NCBI GenBank assembly: GCA_027294455.1 | Contig: JAPULZ010000064.1 | Location: forward strand, 62,001 to 126,000 | Source: Gemmatimonadota bacterium | GTDB lineage: Bacteria > Gemmatimonadota > Gemmatimonadetes > Gemmatimonadales > GWC2-71-9 | Direction of reading: 5' to 3' | DNA: 64,000 bases | In this document: positions 2 to 6,909 of the stretch, piece by piece | Layout: the number at the start of each line of letters is the position of its first letter | Numbering within the stretch: the stretch's first letter is position 1 | Program-made: the position numbers and the translations under genes | Notes under the pieces: model-generated | What the model was told of the DNA's origin: nothing | Database searches by the model: none | What the model saw: only the letters and a program-made list of their open reading frames with translations

Positions 2-2992
2 CCCTGGGGGAACACCACGTTCGAGGGAACCGCGCAGCACCGCCATGGGAACGGCCCCATCAGTGTTGCACGCGGAGTCGTGCGTCTCGATCATCGCACC
101 GACACGGTGGGCGTGTGGGCGCAACTCGAGTTGGATTCGTTGAGATTTGCCGGCGTGCACGCCTCGTATCCCCGCCTGCCGGAGCGGGGAGTATTCGGAG
201 GCCGAGCCACACTCAGCGGATTTGCCGATTCGCTCGGGTTCCGCATCGACGCCGAGGGTCCGCCCGGCCGCGTGGTGGCCACCGGGTACCTAGTGCTCCT
301 GCCGGACGTGCTCGGCGTGCAGAACCTCAACGCCCAGGTGCGCCGCCTGAGCCTGGGCGATTTGGAGTCGATGTTTCCGCCCACGGAGCTCTACGGGCGA
401 GTGCACGGCGGCGTGTCGTCCGATTCGGCGGCCGGGCTCGTGGGCGAACTCTCCATCGTGCTCGACGCGTCCTTCGCCGCCGGTTCGCCCATCGACGGTA
501 TGCGGGGCGTGGTCCGGTTCGAGAACCGGATGATCTTCGCGGACAGCCTCCGCTTGACGGGCCCGTCCATGACTCTAATCGCCCATGGGGGATTGGGGTT
601 GATCGACGCGCGGCCGGGTGTGCTCCGGGTCCTGGCGGACGTGGATTCGTTGGCCACCATCGAACCACTGCTGCGCGAGCGTTTCCCACGGTTGGAGCAA
701 GACAGCATCTTCACCCGCATGATCGGCTCGGTGGACGCCGAGGTCACCCTGGCCGGGTCCATCGACGAATTCGAAGCCGACATCGTGGTCTCCGTCCCCC
801 TCGCCACCTCGGTGGGTGCGTGGCTCGAGGGGCTGGACGTACGTGCGACGCTGCCGGCGAGTCCCAGGGGAGCCCTCTCCGTCGTGGGCCGTGCCGACTC
901 GCTGGCGCTGGGACGATACGCGTACTCGGATCTCGAGCTCAGCATGTCCGGCCGCCGCAACGCCGCAACCTGGCTTGGGCGGGTGCGGTTGGGGAGCGAG
1001 GGGTCCTGGATCGCCTGGGGACGCACCGAGGTCGATTCCGGGCAGATCCGAATTCCCGTCGAGTTCATGGGGCTGTTGCTCCCCACGCACCGCTGGTTCC
1101 TCGAGCCGGGTGCGGTGGTGACGGTGACCGATTCGGCGTTAGATCTCGCCAACGTCTTGATCAAGAGTGAAGACGGCGGCGCATGGGTCGAGATGGAGGG
1201 ACAAATTCCCCGGGGAGGCGCGACGGGCAGCCTCTCGGGTTCGTGGGTGCGCTTGCCCCTGTCGGACGTGTGGGGGCTCGCCCAACTCGATACTGAGCAT
1301 GTCGGGGGGGACGTGGGCGGCACGTTGGAGCTGTCGGGGTCGGCCACCGCGCCGGTGTGGCATGCGGCGTTCCAGGTGAACGACGGCCGGTTCCGCTCTT
1401 TCCGCATCCCGTTGCTCGAGACGACGGTGGGGTACGAGAACCAGCGGCTGGTCGCAGAGGGAACGATCTGGCGACTGGCCCAGCCCATCCTGACCCTCGA
1501 CCTCGACCTGCCGCTCGATCTCGCCCTGGAGGGGGCTGAACAGCGCCAGCTTCCCGGGCCCCTGACCATCAACGCCACCGCCGACGGGGTCGACCTCTCA
1601 CTCATGGAGCTCGTCACCCCGCTGGTGCGTAACGCCGTGGGACAGCTCGATGCCAACGTCGGGATCACGGGAACCTGGCGCGAACCCCAGCTCACGGGCA
1701 CGCTCGCCCTCACCGATGCCGGCGCCTTCCTGCCGGGACTCGGTGTGACCCACGAGAACATCTCGGGGTCGGTCGTCTTGGCGGGCGATACGATTCGGGT
1801 GGATCGCCTGGTCATCGGCAGCGGAGGAGGAACCGCAGAGATCACCGGGTTCGTCCGCCTGCAAGACCTGACCCAGCCCATCGTCGAATTGGGCATCGTC
1901 GCGAATCAATTCCGCACCCTCGACGTCCCGGATTTTTTGGCGTTCACGATGACCGGAGACCTCTCGCTGGACGGTCCGATCTTCGGCGCGACGTTGCGGG
2001 GTCGGGGCACTTTGAGCGAAACGGATCTGTATTTCGCGGATCTCATCCAAAAGCGCATCATCAATCTCGAAGACACATTGTACGCGTTCAGCCCGTCTTT
2101 CATCGATCGGGAGCTTCTGCGCGAGGAGGGACTCCTCGCGGCGTTGCAGATTCGGCTGCTCGACAGCTTGCGGATCGAAGACCTGGCGCTCGAGATGGGC
2201 TCCAACGTGCGTTTGCTGTCCACTGAAGCGGATATTGCCCTCACGGGCCGGCTGTTGATAGGCAAGGTGGCGGACCAGTATCGGTTCGACGGAACCCTGA
2301 ACGCCCCGCGTGGGACGTACCGCCTTTCGTTCGGGAGCAGCGCCGGTCTCGGCGAGCTGATCGTGCGTGAGTTCACGGTGACCGGGGGACAGGTGCAGTA
2401 CTTCGGGACGCCCGATTTGAACGCCGGCTTGAACATCGACGCCCGCTACAATCTTCGCACGACCAAGGGCGAGGATCTCACCATTTTCGTGAACGTCGGG
2501 GGAACGCTCTACGCCCCGGACCTGACGCTGAGTAGCGACTTCCGGCCGCCCCTCCCCGAGGACGAGGTGATCTCCTACCTCCTGTTCAATGCGCCGAGCG
2601 TCGAGGCGCTGGGTGGGCAGGAACTAGGATTCTTGCGGTCCCAGCTGCTGGGGGCCCTGTCCAGCCAGATCGGTGGGCTCCTCATCTCGGACCTGGGGGT
2701 GCCGCTCAGTTATCTCAGCATCCGGCCGCCGTCCCAGGGATTGTCCGGGACGGAAGTAGCCCTGGGGTGGCAGATCGGTCCCAAGACGTATGTGACGCTG
2801 AGCCCGCGCATCTGCCAGCAGCAGGAGGTGTTCCATCCGGACCTCGGTGCCAGCGTCGAGTACCGCTTCACGCAAAATTGGCTTTTCTCGGCCAGCCGCG
2901 ATCCGGTGAACACGTGTTCGGTGCTGGGCGGCCCCTCCCGCGCCATCAAGTCGCAGCTCGGTGTCGATCTGTTCTGGGAAAAACGATACTAG
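2..2992 (+). CDS. tamB: TamB-like translocation and assembly module protein (5' truncated)
   Basis: The reading frame is open to the left edge, so the GTG at 80 in the ORF track is not the real start and the N-terminal anchor lies outside the window. The visible 996 codons are long runs of alternating beta-strand sequence with no catalytic motif. They end in a TamB/DUF490-type C-terminal domain (DFRPPLPEDEVISYLLFN) and a short aromatic C-terminus. TamB proteins span the periplasm and move lipids or outer-membrane proteins with a TamA/BamA-type partner. No BamA-type gene is visible. The stop overlaps the GTG start of the lipid kinase by one base, so the two are probably co-translated and share envelope lipid context. 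The family call is confident, the exact role less so. Confidence 0.85.
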   Translation, partial: PWGNTTFEGTAQHRHGNGPISVARGVVRLDHRTDTVGVWAQLELDSLRFAGVHASYPRLPERGVFGGRATLSGFADSLGFRIDAEGPPGRVVATGYLVLLPDVLGVQNLNAQVRRLSLGDLESMFPPTELYGRVHGGVSSDSAAGLVGELSIVLDASFAAGSPIDGMRGVVRFENRMIFADSLRLTGPSMTLIAHGGLGLIDARPGVLRVLADVDSLATIEPLLRERFPRLEQDSIFTRMIGSVDAEVTLAGSIDEFEADIVVSVPLATSVGAWLEGLDVRATLPASPRGALSVVGRADSLALGRYAYSDLELSMSGRRNAATWLGRVRLGSEGSWIAWGRTEVDSGQIRIPVEFMGLLLPTHRWFLEPGAVVTVTDSALDLANVLIKSEDGGAWVEMEGQIPRGGATGSLSGSWVRLPLSDVWGLAQLDTEHVGGDVGGTLELSGSATAPVWHAAFQVNDGRFRSFRIPLLETTVGYENQRLVAEGTIWRLAQPILTLDLDLPLDLALEGAEQRQLPGPLTINATADGVDLSLMELVTPLVRNAVGQLDANVGITGTWREPQLTGTLALTDAGAFLPGLGVTHENISGSVVLAGDTIRVDRLVIGSGGGTAEITGFVRLQDLTQPIVELGIVANQFRTLDVPDFLAFTMTGDLSLDGPIFGATLRGRGTLSETDLYFADLIQKRIINLEDTLYAFSPSFIDRELLREEGLLAALQIRLLDSLRIEDLALEMGSNVRLLSTEADIALTGRLLIGKVADQYRFDGTLNAPRGTYRLSFGSSAGLGELIVREFTVTGGQVQYFGTPDLNAGLNIDARYNLRTTKGEDLTIFVNVGGTLYAPDLTLSSDFRPPLPEDEVISYLLFNAPSVEALGGQELGFLRSQLLGALSSQIGGLLISDLGVPLSYLSIRPPSQGLSGTEVALGWQIGPKTYVTLSPRICQQQEVFHPDLGASVEYRFTQNWLFSASRDPVNTCSVLGGPSRAIKSQLGVDLFWEKRY

Positions 2993-3879
2993 TGCGGCGT
3001 ATTCTCTTGATAAAAAACCCGGCCGCCGCACGTACCCGCCGGCGGACCAGAGAGTCTGTCGTGGCCGCCATGGAGGAGTTGGGGTGTGAGGTGCGTGTGG
3101 CCGTGACCACCGGCCAGGGCGATGCGGTGCAGGTTGCCCGAGCCGGCGCCCAGGACGGAGTCGACGCCATCGCCGTCTACGGCGGCGACGGAACGGTCAT
3201 GCAGGCGGTGGAAGGCATGATGGGCCACGACATCCCGATTGGCATCATCCCCGGTGGGACCGGCAACCTGCTGGCCGGCAACCTGCGGCTACCCCGGGAT
3301 CCCGTCGCCGCGGCCCGTATCGTCGCCTCCGGCCGGCCCCGGGCCATCGATCTCGGCCGATTGGACCAGGCCGGGCGAACGCAATATTTTGCCGTGGCGG
3401 CCGGCTCGGGATTCGACGCCGATCTGATGGCGCGCACCACCAGCGCCGCCAAGCGACGATGGGGGTTCGCCGCCTACGTGGCCCAGGCTGTGACACTGGC
3501 CGGGGCGTTGCGAACCGGTTCGTTTCGGGTCACGATTGATGGCGAGCCGATGGAGCTGGATGCGACCACGGTCTTGGTGGCGAACTGCCGGGAATTCGCG
3601 CCCCCGAGGATGAGTCTCGCGCCGGACATCGCCTTCGACGACGGCGTGTTGGACGTCGTGGTGCTCAAGGCAAAGGGGGTGTTGGAATCGGCTGGGATCT
3701 TGTGGAAACTTTGGAACGACACAGTTGATGGTGTTGCGGTGCGTCATTATCGGGGAACGGAAATAACGGTGGAAACCCAGCCGAGCCGCCCGGTTCAGCT
3801 CGACGGCGAGGTGAGTGGCGAGACCCCCTTCACTGCGACCATACTACCCAAAGGACTTTCGGTGCTCGTCCCGGCATAG
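2992..3879 (+). CDS. Diacylglycerol kinase family lipid kinase (YegS/DgkB type)
   Basis: A 295-aa soluble lipid kinase of the DAGK catalytic family. The nucleotide-binding signature GGDGT lies at residues 64-68 and the second glycine motif GGTGN at 88-92. The C-terminal half carries the family's QLDGE motif near residue 270. It likely phosphorylates diacylglycerol or a related lipid at the inner membrane. The start is GTG at 2992, whose G is the last base of the tamB TAG. The ORF-track start at 2767 would overlap tamB by 225 bases and is rejected. Length fits the family. The lipid substrate cannot be told from sequence. Confidence 0.9.
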   Translation: MRRILLIKNPAAARTRRRTRESVVAAMEELGCEVRVAVTTGQGDAVQVARAGAQDGVDAIAVYGGDGTVMQAVEGMMGHDIPIGIIPGGTGNLLAGNLRLPRDPVAAARIVASGRPRAIDLGRLDQAGRTQYFAVAAGSGFDADLMARTTSAAKRRWGFAAYVAQAVTLAGALRTGSFRVTIDGEPMELDATTVLVANCREFAPPRMSLAPDIAFDDGVLDVVVLKAKGVLESAGILWKLWNDTVDGVAVRHYRGTEITVETQPSRPVQLDGEVSGETPFTATILPKGLSVLVPA

Positions 3880-3922: not shown

Positions 3923-5269
3923 ATGGATCAATCCGTATTGTTGGTCGACGACGATCCAGCAATTCTCAAATCTGTCGGCAACTTCCTCGAGCGGTCCGGC
4001 TATCAGGTTTTCCGTGCTGCGACGGGCGAGCTGGCCCTCCAGCAGAATGAAAAGAATGCGCCGGACGTCGTCTTGCTCGATTTGCATCTGCCCGAGATGC
4101 CCGGTTTCGAGGTGCTGGAGACACTGCGCGAGCAGGACGCGGCCGTCATCGTGTTGACGGGCCGCGGCGACATCGAGACCGCCGTGCAGGCCATGCAGCG
4201 CGGAGCCGAGAATTTCCTCACGAAGCCCGTGGACATGCCCCACCTGCTGCTGGCGGTCGATCGCGTCCGTGACAAGGTGCGGATGCGGCGCGACGTGGGC
4301 CTGCTCATGGCGCGGGCCAACCCGGAGGCCGATCTGTCTTCCTTGGGATCGTCTCCCAAGATGCGGGAAATCGCCCGCCAGGTCGAACTCCTCGCCTCGA
4401 ACGACACCACCACCACACTCATCATCGGCGAGAGCGGGACGGGCAAGGGCTACCTCGCACGCATGATCCACTCGCTGTCCGCGCGCTCCCGGGAACCGTT
4501 CGTCGATATCAACTGCGGCGGCCTCACCGTAGCGCACCTCGACAGCGAGCTGTTCGGCGCCGAGAAAGACACCGATCCGGGAACCCGGGAGCGGCGCCCG
4601 GGCCTGTTCGAGCTGGCCGATCGCGGAACGATTCTGCTGGACTCCGTCGGTGAGTTGGCCCCCGAGCTCCAACCAAAGCTCTTGCACGTGCTCGAGTCCA
4701 AGACCTTCCGCCGGATGGGCGGCGCGCGCGAAATCACCGTCGACGTGCGGGTGATAGCCGCAACGAGCACCGACCTCGGGGAAGCCGTGTGGGCGGGCCG
4801 GTTCCGGGACGACTTGTTCTATCGGCTGAACGTCCTGCCGATCCTGCTTCCGCCGTGTCGCGAGCGCACACAGGAAGATCGCCTGGCGTTGCTGGAGCGA
4901 CTCTTGGCGTCGTTGTGGCGGGGAGACGTGGGGGCGCAGCCGGTCATCGAGACCGCCGCGCTGGAGCGACTGCTCGCGTATTCCTGGCCCGGCAACGTGC
5001 GCGAGATGCGCAACGTCCTCGAGCGGGCACTGTTGCTGGCGCAGGGGCAGTCGAGCATCGGCCTCGGGCACCTCCCCGTCGAGATCCGCCGCGACATGCA
5101 CCTGAGCGACACCAAGTATGACGTCCTGACACTCAAGGAGGTCGAGCGCCGGCAGATCGCCGTGGCGCTCCAACACCACAACGGCAATCGCACGCACACC
5201 GCCCGCGATCTGGCCATTTCGCGTGCGACCCTCATCAAGAAGATCAAACTCTACGAACTGGACGCATGA
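3923..5269 (+). CDS. NtrC-like response regulator with degenerate AAA+ domain
   Basis: A 448-aa protein: receiver domain (about 4-115, phosphoacceptor D53, K101), NtrC-family AAA+ domain (about 140-375) and a Fis-type HTH (about 405-446). Walker A is intact (GESGTGKG, 169-176), as are RFRDDLFYRLN and GNVRE. Three hallmarks are altered. The sigma54-contacting GAFTGA loop reads DTDPGT near 216-221. The Walker B DE reads DS (LLDS, 237-241). Sensor I AATN reads AATS (279-282). A normal sigma54 activator needs the first two, so this is probably a phosphorylation-controlled DNA-binding protein that does not remodel sigma54. The ATG at 3923 is chosen because the receiver domain begins immediately after it. 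No histidine kinase is adjacent. Confidence 0.88.
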   Translation: MDQSVLLVDDDPAILKSVGNFLERSGYQVFRAATGELALQQNEKNAPDVVLLDLHLPEMPGFEVLETLREQDAAVIVLTGRGDIETAVQAMQRGAENFLTKPVDMPHLLLAVDRVRDKVRMRRDVGLLMARANPEADLSSLGSSPKMREIARQVELLASNDTTTTLIIGESGTGKGYLARMIHSLSARSREPFVDINCGGLTVAHLDSELFGAEKDTDPGTRERRPGLFELADRGTILLDSVGELAPELQPKLLHVLESKTFRRMGGAREITVDVRVIAATSTDLGEAVWAGRFRDDLFYRLNVLPILLPPCRERTQEDRLALLERLLASLWRGDVGAQPVIETAALERLLAYSWPGNVREMRNVLERALLLAQGQSSIGLGHLPVEIRRDMHLSDTKYDVLTLKEVERRQIAVALQHHNGNRTHTARDLAISRATLIKKIKLYELDA

Positions 5270-5275
5270 GCCGAC

Positions 5276-5464
5276 ATGACCAAGAAGAGTGACGGCATGG
5301 TTTGCCGCGCGTGCGGCAATGATGAACGCGCATCGGAAGGATATCCTTGCGAGGATTGTGGCACGTTCCTTTGCCTGATGTGTTCGTTTCGTGGCGTGTC
5401 CCGGTGTAACGCCTGTGCCGCAAAGGCAGGGGTACCGAACGTTCCGGAAGACCGTCGTTCCTGA
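5276..5464 (+). CDS. Small four-CxxC zinc-ribbon protein
   Basis: A 62-aa protein with four CxxC pairs (CRAC, CEDC, CLMC, CNAC), enough ligands for two zinc sites. No helix-turn-helix or catalytic domain is present and I do not recognise a named family. It starts six bases after the response-regulator stop and ends nine bases before the HAD phosphatase, inside an evident operon. The dense, evenly spaced cysteines argue that it is a real gene and not a chance ORF. A role as a metal-binding adaptor is inference. Confidence 0.72.
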   Translation: MTKKSDGMVCRACGNDERASEGYPCEDCGTFLCLMCSFRGVSRCNACAAKAGVPNVPEDRRS

Positions 5465-5473
5465 TCCCGCGAC

Positions 5474-6175
5474 ATGACGTTCAGAAAGCTCGTATTGTTC
5501 GACATTGACGGGACGCTGCTCTCGTCCGATGGGGCAGGTCGCGGCGCCATTCGCAACGCCCTGCTTGACGAGATGGGGACGACGGGCCCCATCGACGATT
5601 TCCGGTTCGACGGCAAGACCGATCCGCAAATCGTGCGGGACCTCATGCTGGCGGTCGATCACCCTGATGCCGAAAGCGACATACACGTGCAGGCGGTGTG
5701 CGACCGCTACATCGAGCTCCTCGAGCGGGAGTTCGCGAGCGGACGGCGCGCTTCCCGTGTTTTCCCCGGGGTACGCGAGTTGTTGGACGAACTCGAAGCG
5801 CGGGCCGATGTGATGCTCGGCTTGCTTACCGGAAACCTCGCGGCGGGTGCGAGACTCAAGCTCGTGGCGGTCGGCATCGAGATGGAGCGATTCCGCGTGG
5901 GGGCGTTCGGGTCGGACGCCGCCGATCGCAGGGCGTTGCCGCCCATCGCCGCCGCGCGGGCGGCCGAGGTGTGGGGGACAGCGCCGAGCGGCGAGCAGGT
6001 CGTCATCATCGGTGACACGCCGGCCGACGTCACCTGCGGAGAGTCCGTCGGGGCGCGTGCCCTGGGCGTGGCGACAGGCGCGTACGTCGCGGCGGACCTG
6101 CATGACGCGGGTGCCTTTGCCGTGTTCGAGGATCTCTCCGACACCGATCGGGTCGTCGCAGCGATTTTCGCGTGA
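5474..6175 (+). CDS. HAD-superfamily hydrolase (phosphoglycolate phosphatase-like)
   Basis: A 233-aa HAD phosphatase. Motif I is DIDGT at 10-14, with nucleophile D10 and acid/base D12. A helical cap follows, then motif II (GLLTGN) near 120 and the acidic motif IV (IIGDTPADVTCG) near 180. Such enzymes dephosphorylate small phosphorylated metabolites such as 2-phosphoglycolate, but the substrate cannot be read from sequence. The TGA stop overlaps the following GTG by four bases (GTGA). The shared operon with a two-component regulator gives no clear pathway. Confidence 0.88.
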   Translation: MTFRKLVLFDIDGTLLSSDGAGRGAIRNALLDEMGTTGPIDDFRFDGKTDPQIVRDLMLAVDHPDAESDIHVQAVCDRYIELLEREFASGRRASRVFPGVRELLDELEARADVMLGLLTGNLAAGARLKLVAVGIEMERFRVGAFGSDAADRRALPPIAAARAAEVWGTAPSGEQVVIIGDTPADVTCGESVGARALGVATGAYVAADLHDAGAFAVFEDLSDTDRVVAAIFA

Positions 6176-6909
6176 CCCACGCCAAGCTGCTGATCCCGCT
6201 GCGGATTCCCGAACTGGGGCCGGCCCTGGGCAAGCTCGTCTCCGGAACCGGAAGCGTGATCGAGGGTTTTTCACTCGAATCCAGCCGCCGCCTCCTGGCG
6301 ACTAGGGTGATCGAGATGGGAGGAGAGGCACGCCGCCTGGCTTCGTCCGGCGAGCGGTCCGCGGCCCTTTCCGTACTGGGCCGCGACGCCTGGCTCGTCG
6401 TGTGGGAAGAGGCCGTGACCCCCGCGGCGACGCGCCTCGTGGAGCGGCTGTCCGCGCACCTGCTGGCCGAGGCCACCGCGGTCCACATGCCGCGGCGAGT
6501 GCGTGAGCGGATAGCCATCGGCGAGATGGAGCGCCGCGCCATCGGTGCGCGGCTCGGATCCGCCGGTGCCGGCCTCATTCCCGTGCTGGACGAAATCGAA
6601 GCGCGAAGCGCCGCGCTGGTGGATGCCACCGGTCTCGAACGGGGCGCGCTCGCGGGATGGCAGAGGGCGCAAACGACGGCGGCGCGCCGTCTGGAGGAGG
6701 CGTGGCTGCTGCTCGAGTGCCGCGTCGCCGAGGAGCTGGTGACCTGGCAGCGCGTCGCCGACGAAACTTCCCGGTGGCGGAAACCGTTGTGGCCCGTGAT
6801 TCTGGTGGGCGTCGCGGGAGTCGGCGCCGCCTTGTGGGTCGGCCTGATGCTGGGCGGGGTGCTGACGGCGCCGTCCTGGTTGGTCTCGCTGTGGCGGAGT
6901 GTGCGGTGA
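6172..6909 (+). CDS. Hypothetical helical protein with one C-terminal membrane segment
   Basis: A 245-aa protein that I do not recognise. Residues 1-200 are Arg/Glu/Ala-rich and predicted helical, with no cysteine-rich or catalytic motif. One hydrophobic segment (PVILVGVAGVGAALWVGLML, about 207-226) and a short basic tail suggest a tail-anchored inner-membrane protein with a cytoplasmic domain. The GTG start overlaps the HAD stop (GTGA), and its own stop overlaps the acpS start the same way, so it is translated as part of this operon. Function is unknown. Confidence 0.7.
   Translation: MTHAKLLIPLRIPELGPALGKLVSGTGSVIEGFSLESSRRLLATRVIEMGGEARRLASSGERSAALSVLGRDAWLVVWEEAVTPAATRLVERLSAHLLAEATAVHMPRRVRERIAIGEMERRAIGARLGSAGAGLIPVLDEIEARSAALVDATGLERGALAGWQRAQTTAARRLEEAWLLLECRVAEELVTWQRVADETSRWRKPLWPVILVGVAGVGAALWVGLMLGGVLTAPSWLVSLWRSVR

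Follow-up and report, generated by a model that had tools for sequence, protein, structure and literature searches.

TyrR of Escherichia coli is controlled by ligand, and DhaR of the same species by DhaK/DhaL. Both have been reported as sigma70-dependent (PMC3162934), and VpsR of Vibrio cholerae, which has an NtrC-like fold, has likewise been reported at sigma70 promoters (PMC10274813, PMC3162934). The NtrC proteins of Rhodobacter capsulatus and Caulobacter also act at sigma70 promoters (PMC10274813, PMC12421884), and the former is reported to require that ATP be bound, though not that it be hydrolysed (PMC10274813). In Caulobacter NtrC, which has no GAFTGA, the Walker A and B residues are still needed (PMC10274813).

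In the 64,000-nucleotide stretch of Gemmatimonadota DNA analysed here (referred to as the window), an open reading frame starting with the ATG at 3923 on the + strand encodes a 448-aa regulator with the following parts:

3923..5269, + strand: response regulator gene (REC-AAA+-HTH, 448 aa) that has lost its sigma54-activating machinery; from ORF, Pfam and alignments
3935..4258, + strand: receiver domain, aa 5-112; from Pfam and residue conservation
4427..4447, + strand: intact Walker A, GESGTGK, aa 169-175; from orthologue alignment
4568..4585, + strand: L1 loop DTDPGT, aa 216-221, in place of GAFTGA/GAFTDA; from alignment with NtrC1 and orthologues
4640..4645, + strand: Walker B D240-S241 (LLDS) in place of DE; from alignment with NtrC1 and orthologues
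4766..4768, + strand: sensor I S282 (AATS) in place of Asn (AATN); from alignment with NtrC1 and orthologues
4805..4825, + strand: intact arginine fingers R295 and R301; from alignment
5129..5251, + strand: intact Fis-type HTH, aa 403-443; from Pfam and residue conservation

Pfam matches to Response_reg (5-112), Sigma54_activat (142-307, 180 bits), AAA_lid_14 and HTH_8 all exceeded their cut-offs, and receiver, AAA+ domain, lid and Fis HTH follow each other in the order of the NtrC-type (group 1) architecture. The phospho-acceptor D53 (nt 4079-4081) is intact, as are D9/D10, T79 and K101 of the receiver, the switch Asn N197 and the sensor II R360; the receiver, Fis HTH and Walker A are preserved, as the initial annotation had stated. 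An AlphaFold2 model took up the usual NtrC-type fold (mean pLDDT 85.6), the tip of L1 (aa 219-221) being predicted at low confidence. Its closest solved full-length structures were NtrX, NtrC1 and VpsR, with full-length TM-scores of about 0.5, as expected given the uncertain domain arrangement. The NCBIfam equivalog cut-offs for NtrX (322 versus 600 bits) and AtoC (348.6 versus 714) were not reached.

The altered motifs were placed with NtrC1 (4l4u/1ny5) and the orthologues as reference, and the initial readings of DTDPGT, DS and AATS proved correct. A GAFTGA or DE placed elsewhere in the protein was rejected, as the AAA+ alignments offered no other site for either. Two sister species of the window's genus carry ETGQDG/LDS/AATS and DVVSGG/LDS/AATA; sequencing error or chance was rejected because these species share the losses. 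The protein therefore lacks the GAFTGA-like loop, the Walker B DE and the sensor I Asn of a functional sigma54-dependent bEBP, and its sequence bears out the proposed loss of sigma54-contact loop, catalytic Glu and sensor Asn alongside retained ATP-binding and oligomer-interface residues.

The regulator was compared across a family of 134 sequences; the window's genome itself falls in a group near named Gemmatimonadetes MAGs. The loop was scored as lost unless acceptable under a rule requiring the central Thr. GAFTDA-type loops are known from natural bEBPs (PMC4641369), and in at least one case the variant is functional, as NorR G266D still activates (PMC2941729). A GAFTDA-type loop, DE and AATN were kept by 40 of the 134 orthologues. 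Among the remaining 94 sequences, a few loops were near misses (GAFPDA, GAFADA, GAFGDA) and the majority were unrecognisable, with the L1 stretch measuring 8 to 33 residues versus 14 in all intact copies. In three sequences of one genus (L114, L148, L156), L1 has become longer instead of shorter, through low-complexity insertions that reach about 20 residues.

Only four combinations of loop, sensor I Asn and Walker B Glu occurred among the 134 sequences: all intact (40), loop alone lost (8), loop and sensor Asn lost (78), and all three lost (8). The losses are thus strictly nested, with the loop first, then the sensor I Asn and then the Walker B Glu, and the window's genus has reached the final one of these stages. 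In independent pairs, loop and sensor I changed in the same direction in 4 of 5 cases, too few for significance.

Parsimony counted 9 loop changes on each of two trees for which the motif columns had been left out of the alignment, and a careful 55-sequence tree forced at least 6; one ancient loop loss was rejected, being found in 0% of bootstrap trees. The loop has been lost independently at least six times within one bacterial order. Relatives from other orders all keep the loop (and lack the small neighbour gene described below), as do all 73 of the further bEBPs compared (73 of 73), seven of them from the window's genome, indicating that the intact state is ancestral. Descent of the window protein from an intact sigma54 activator lineage, as the initial annotation had proposed, is supported by the intact orthologues and class-level relatives; the loss did not happen just once but six or more times. 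Loss of sigma54 as the cause was rejected, given that the window's genome has rpoN, as do 157 of the order's 159 good genomes.

The ordered erosion of L1, sensor I and Walker B could also be expected if the sigma54 targets had gone and a useless regulator were heading for loss. Some of the later stages fit such decay. In the window's own genus, G003 has the flanking TamB-YegS-Zn genes without the regulator, which shows that the gene is dispensable in some settings; G027 (L286) retains only fragments, a relic; and several genera have lost the gene. Neighbouring genera show other late forms. In G045 (L279), an AAA+-HTH protein without receiver remains, and its loop, sensor I and Walker B are all changed. 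In G067 (L283: 2704-3297), a protein of 197 aa passes from its receiver straight into an HTH that shares 85% identity with that of the family; the AAA+ domain is gone, and the phospho-acceptor Asp is replaced by Gly. It is a natural REC-HTH fusion, produced when an NtrC-type regulator lost its entire AAA+ domain. G003, G027, G045 and G067 are each known from a single assembly. In four orthologues (L265, L266, L268, L219), the HTH is unchanged although the loop, the Walker B Asp and the acidic residues of the receiver have all been replaced.

Against decay, the loop-lost regulator is under purifying selection (median omega 0.088 for loop-lost pairs versus 0.073 for intact pairs), the loop-lost copies analysed are open across the whole match, and one old loss was followed by persistence through a whole family (67 sequences). 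Mean identity fell to 0.26 in the L1 of loop-lost copies, versus 0.87 in intact ones, but only to 0.72 versus 0.78 in the HTH. Within the window's genus, relaxation is confined to L1, with a pN/pS of 0.52 versus 0.16-0.22 in other regions, a rough measure at a dS of 1.4-1.8. Among the 94 loop-lost orthologues, the Walker A Lys is kept in 93, the arginine fingers in 92 and 87, the sensor II Arg in 89, the receiver Asp and Lys in 90 and 91, and HTH residues N422/R423/R434/T436/L437/K440 in all 94; the sensor I Asn remains in 8 and the switch Asn in 51. Taken together, omega, regional identity and pN/pS indicate that the protein is kept, and that it is chiefly the sigma54 contact and the coupling residues that have been freed from constraint. 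We therefore regard decay as unlikely, although G003 keeps a gradual dispensability of the regulator in play.

The regulator resides in a Gemmatimonadota locus of conserved layout (TamB - YegS-type lipid kinase - regulator - 61-aa zinc protein - HAD), of which the neighbours in the window are:

80..2992, + strand: TamB-like gene, conserved locus anchor
2986..3879, + strand: YegS/diacylglycerol-kinase-like gene, conserved upstream neighbour of the regulator
5276..5464, + strand: small protein of 61-62 aa with eight Cys, conserved neighbour, starting 6 bp past the regulator's stop
5474..6175, + strand: HAD hydrolase gene, conserved locus anchor

A conserved 245-aa protein of the same locus, without Pfam match, follows at 6172-6909 (+).

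A histidine-kinase-like gene, identified from sequence signatures without a family search, directly precedes the regulator in 46 of 92 loop-lost loci versus 3 of 40 intact loci, and this too speaks against decay. The regulator in the window has no kinase gene beside it, which weighs against the reading favoured below. With half of the loop-lost genes so preceded, phospho-signalling is probably the input that these regulators retained.

In 127 of 133 loci the small Cys-rich gene comes next after the regulator, usually at a distance of 10-40 bp. Within the order, 227 of 288 genomes encode its product; it was not found in the genomes sampled outside the order, and a Pfam search yielded no family above cut-off. 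The eight Cys of the protein are invariant, as is a RASEG motif, and it persists in loci where the regulator is gone. We give little credence to the idea that it might be a co-regulator linking the DNA-binding regulator to ordinary RNA polymerase; were this so, it would explain why the sigma54 loop became dispensable, repeatedly, only in lineages with the pair of regulator and mini-protein.

Because the residues kept serve phosphorylation, nucleotide binding, subunit contact and DNA binding, and those lost couple hydrolysis to sigma54, the pattern is best read as that of a static oligomer. We consider it fairly probable that the window protein, ancestrally a sigma54-dependent NtrC-type activator, is no longer ATP-driven and acts as an oligomeric DNA-binding regulator gated by phosphorylation and ATP binding. 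Phosphorylation of D53 would provide the signal input, and ATP would be bound without hydrolysis, upon which the AAA+ domain might assemble as a static oligomer presenting its Fis-type HTHs to operator sites. Ordinary (sigma70-type) promoters might then be regulated by recruitment or blocking, with either activation or repression as the outcome. By-eye inspection upstream of the regulator gene revealed no convincing conserved operator. PspF E108Q, altered in the Walker B Glu, cannot hydrolyse ATP but binds it 30-fold tighter, and forms hexamers constitutively (PMC4132715), although this analogy is only a guide, the window protein having serine and not glutamine at this position. The continued need of Caulobacter NtrC for Walker A and B further implies that loop loss does not always make a static protein.

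The retained interface residues and arginine fingers, together with at least seven intact bEBPs in the genome, would also suit an inactive subunit of a mixed hexamer, in which another bEBP of the cell supplies loop and ATPase. HrpR/HrpS-type pairs exemplify such mixed bEBP hexamers. In linked PspF dimers, E108 variants are tolerated when they occupy every other subunit, but PspF requires several subunits with intact L1 (PMC4132715). Since no bEBP partner adjoins the regulator in the locus and the L283 relative, which also counts in favour of a static regulator, does without the AAA+ domain entirely, we find a mixed hexamer quite improbable. The presence of rpoN, that is, the retention of sigma54 itself, and the effect of Caulobacter NtrC HTH mutants on sigma54-dependent genes despite the lack of GAFTGA (PMC12421884) could hint that sigma54 promoters are still activated via another surface. 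With loop, sensor and catalytic Glu all absent, and sigma54-like sites near the regulator not in excess (1 in each class, versus 0.4-0.75 expected, an uninformative count by itself), this seems very improbable indeed.

As read from its sequence, the window protein is NtrC-family by descent and fails the features of sigma54-dependent bEBPs; like sigma70-type former bEBPs, it has no GAFTGA and keeps its DNA-binding domain. Among solved structures, NtrX of Brucella abortus (5m7n/5m7p) was the best full-length match by E-value and shares the REC-AAA+-HTH order, but has 31-32% identity and belongs to the NtrYX system, and the window protein scores far below the NtrX cut-off. VpsR (7v2b), 26% identical, also lacks GAFTGA; it binds c-di-GMP, as does the bEBP FleQ. 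Aligned TyrR resembles the window protein in having its GAFTGA loop deleted, CATQ at sensor I, and Walker A and arginine fingers kept, but differs in its retained Walker B DE, missing receiver and different HTH. In aligned DhaR, loop, sensor I and Walker B are all altered (FLEK, ATTT) as in the window, but the arginine fingers are lost too and there is no receiver. R. capsulatus and Caulobacter NtrC share both REC-AAA+-HTH and the lack of GAFTGA, but they are NtrC orthologues of another locus and family that lost the loop by deletion, and the Caulobacter protein needs its Walker B Asp.

By analogy, the window protein may work like these sigma70-type former bEBPs, and annotations as 'sigma-54-dependent regulator' in these bacteria are often wrong, a warning for annotators. 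A literature search naming the phylum returned nothing on the regulator family. With at least six losses, ordered intermediates, an AAA+ deletion and intact sisters, the locus constitutes a natural experiment in the passage from ATP-driven activator to ordinary regulator. Single former activators are known; what is new is this family, in which a single locus has undergone so many independent losses in a strict order, along with its natural series of deletions.
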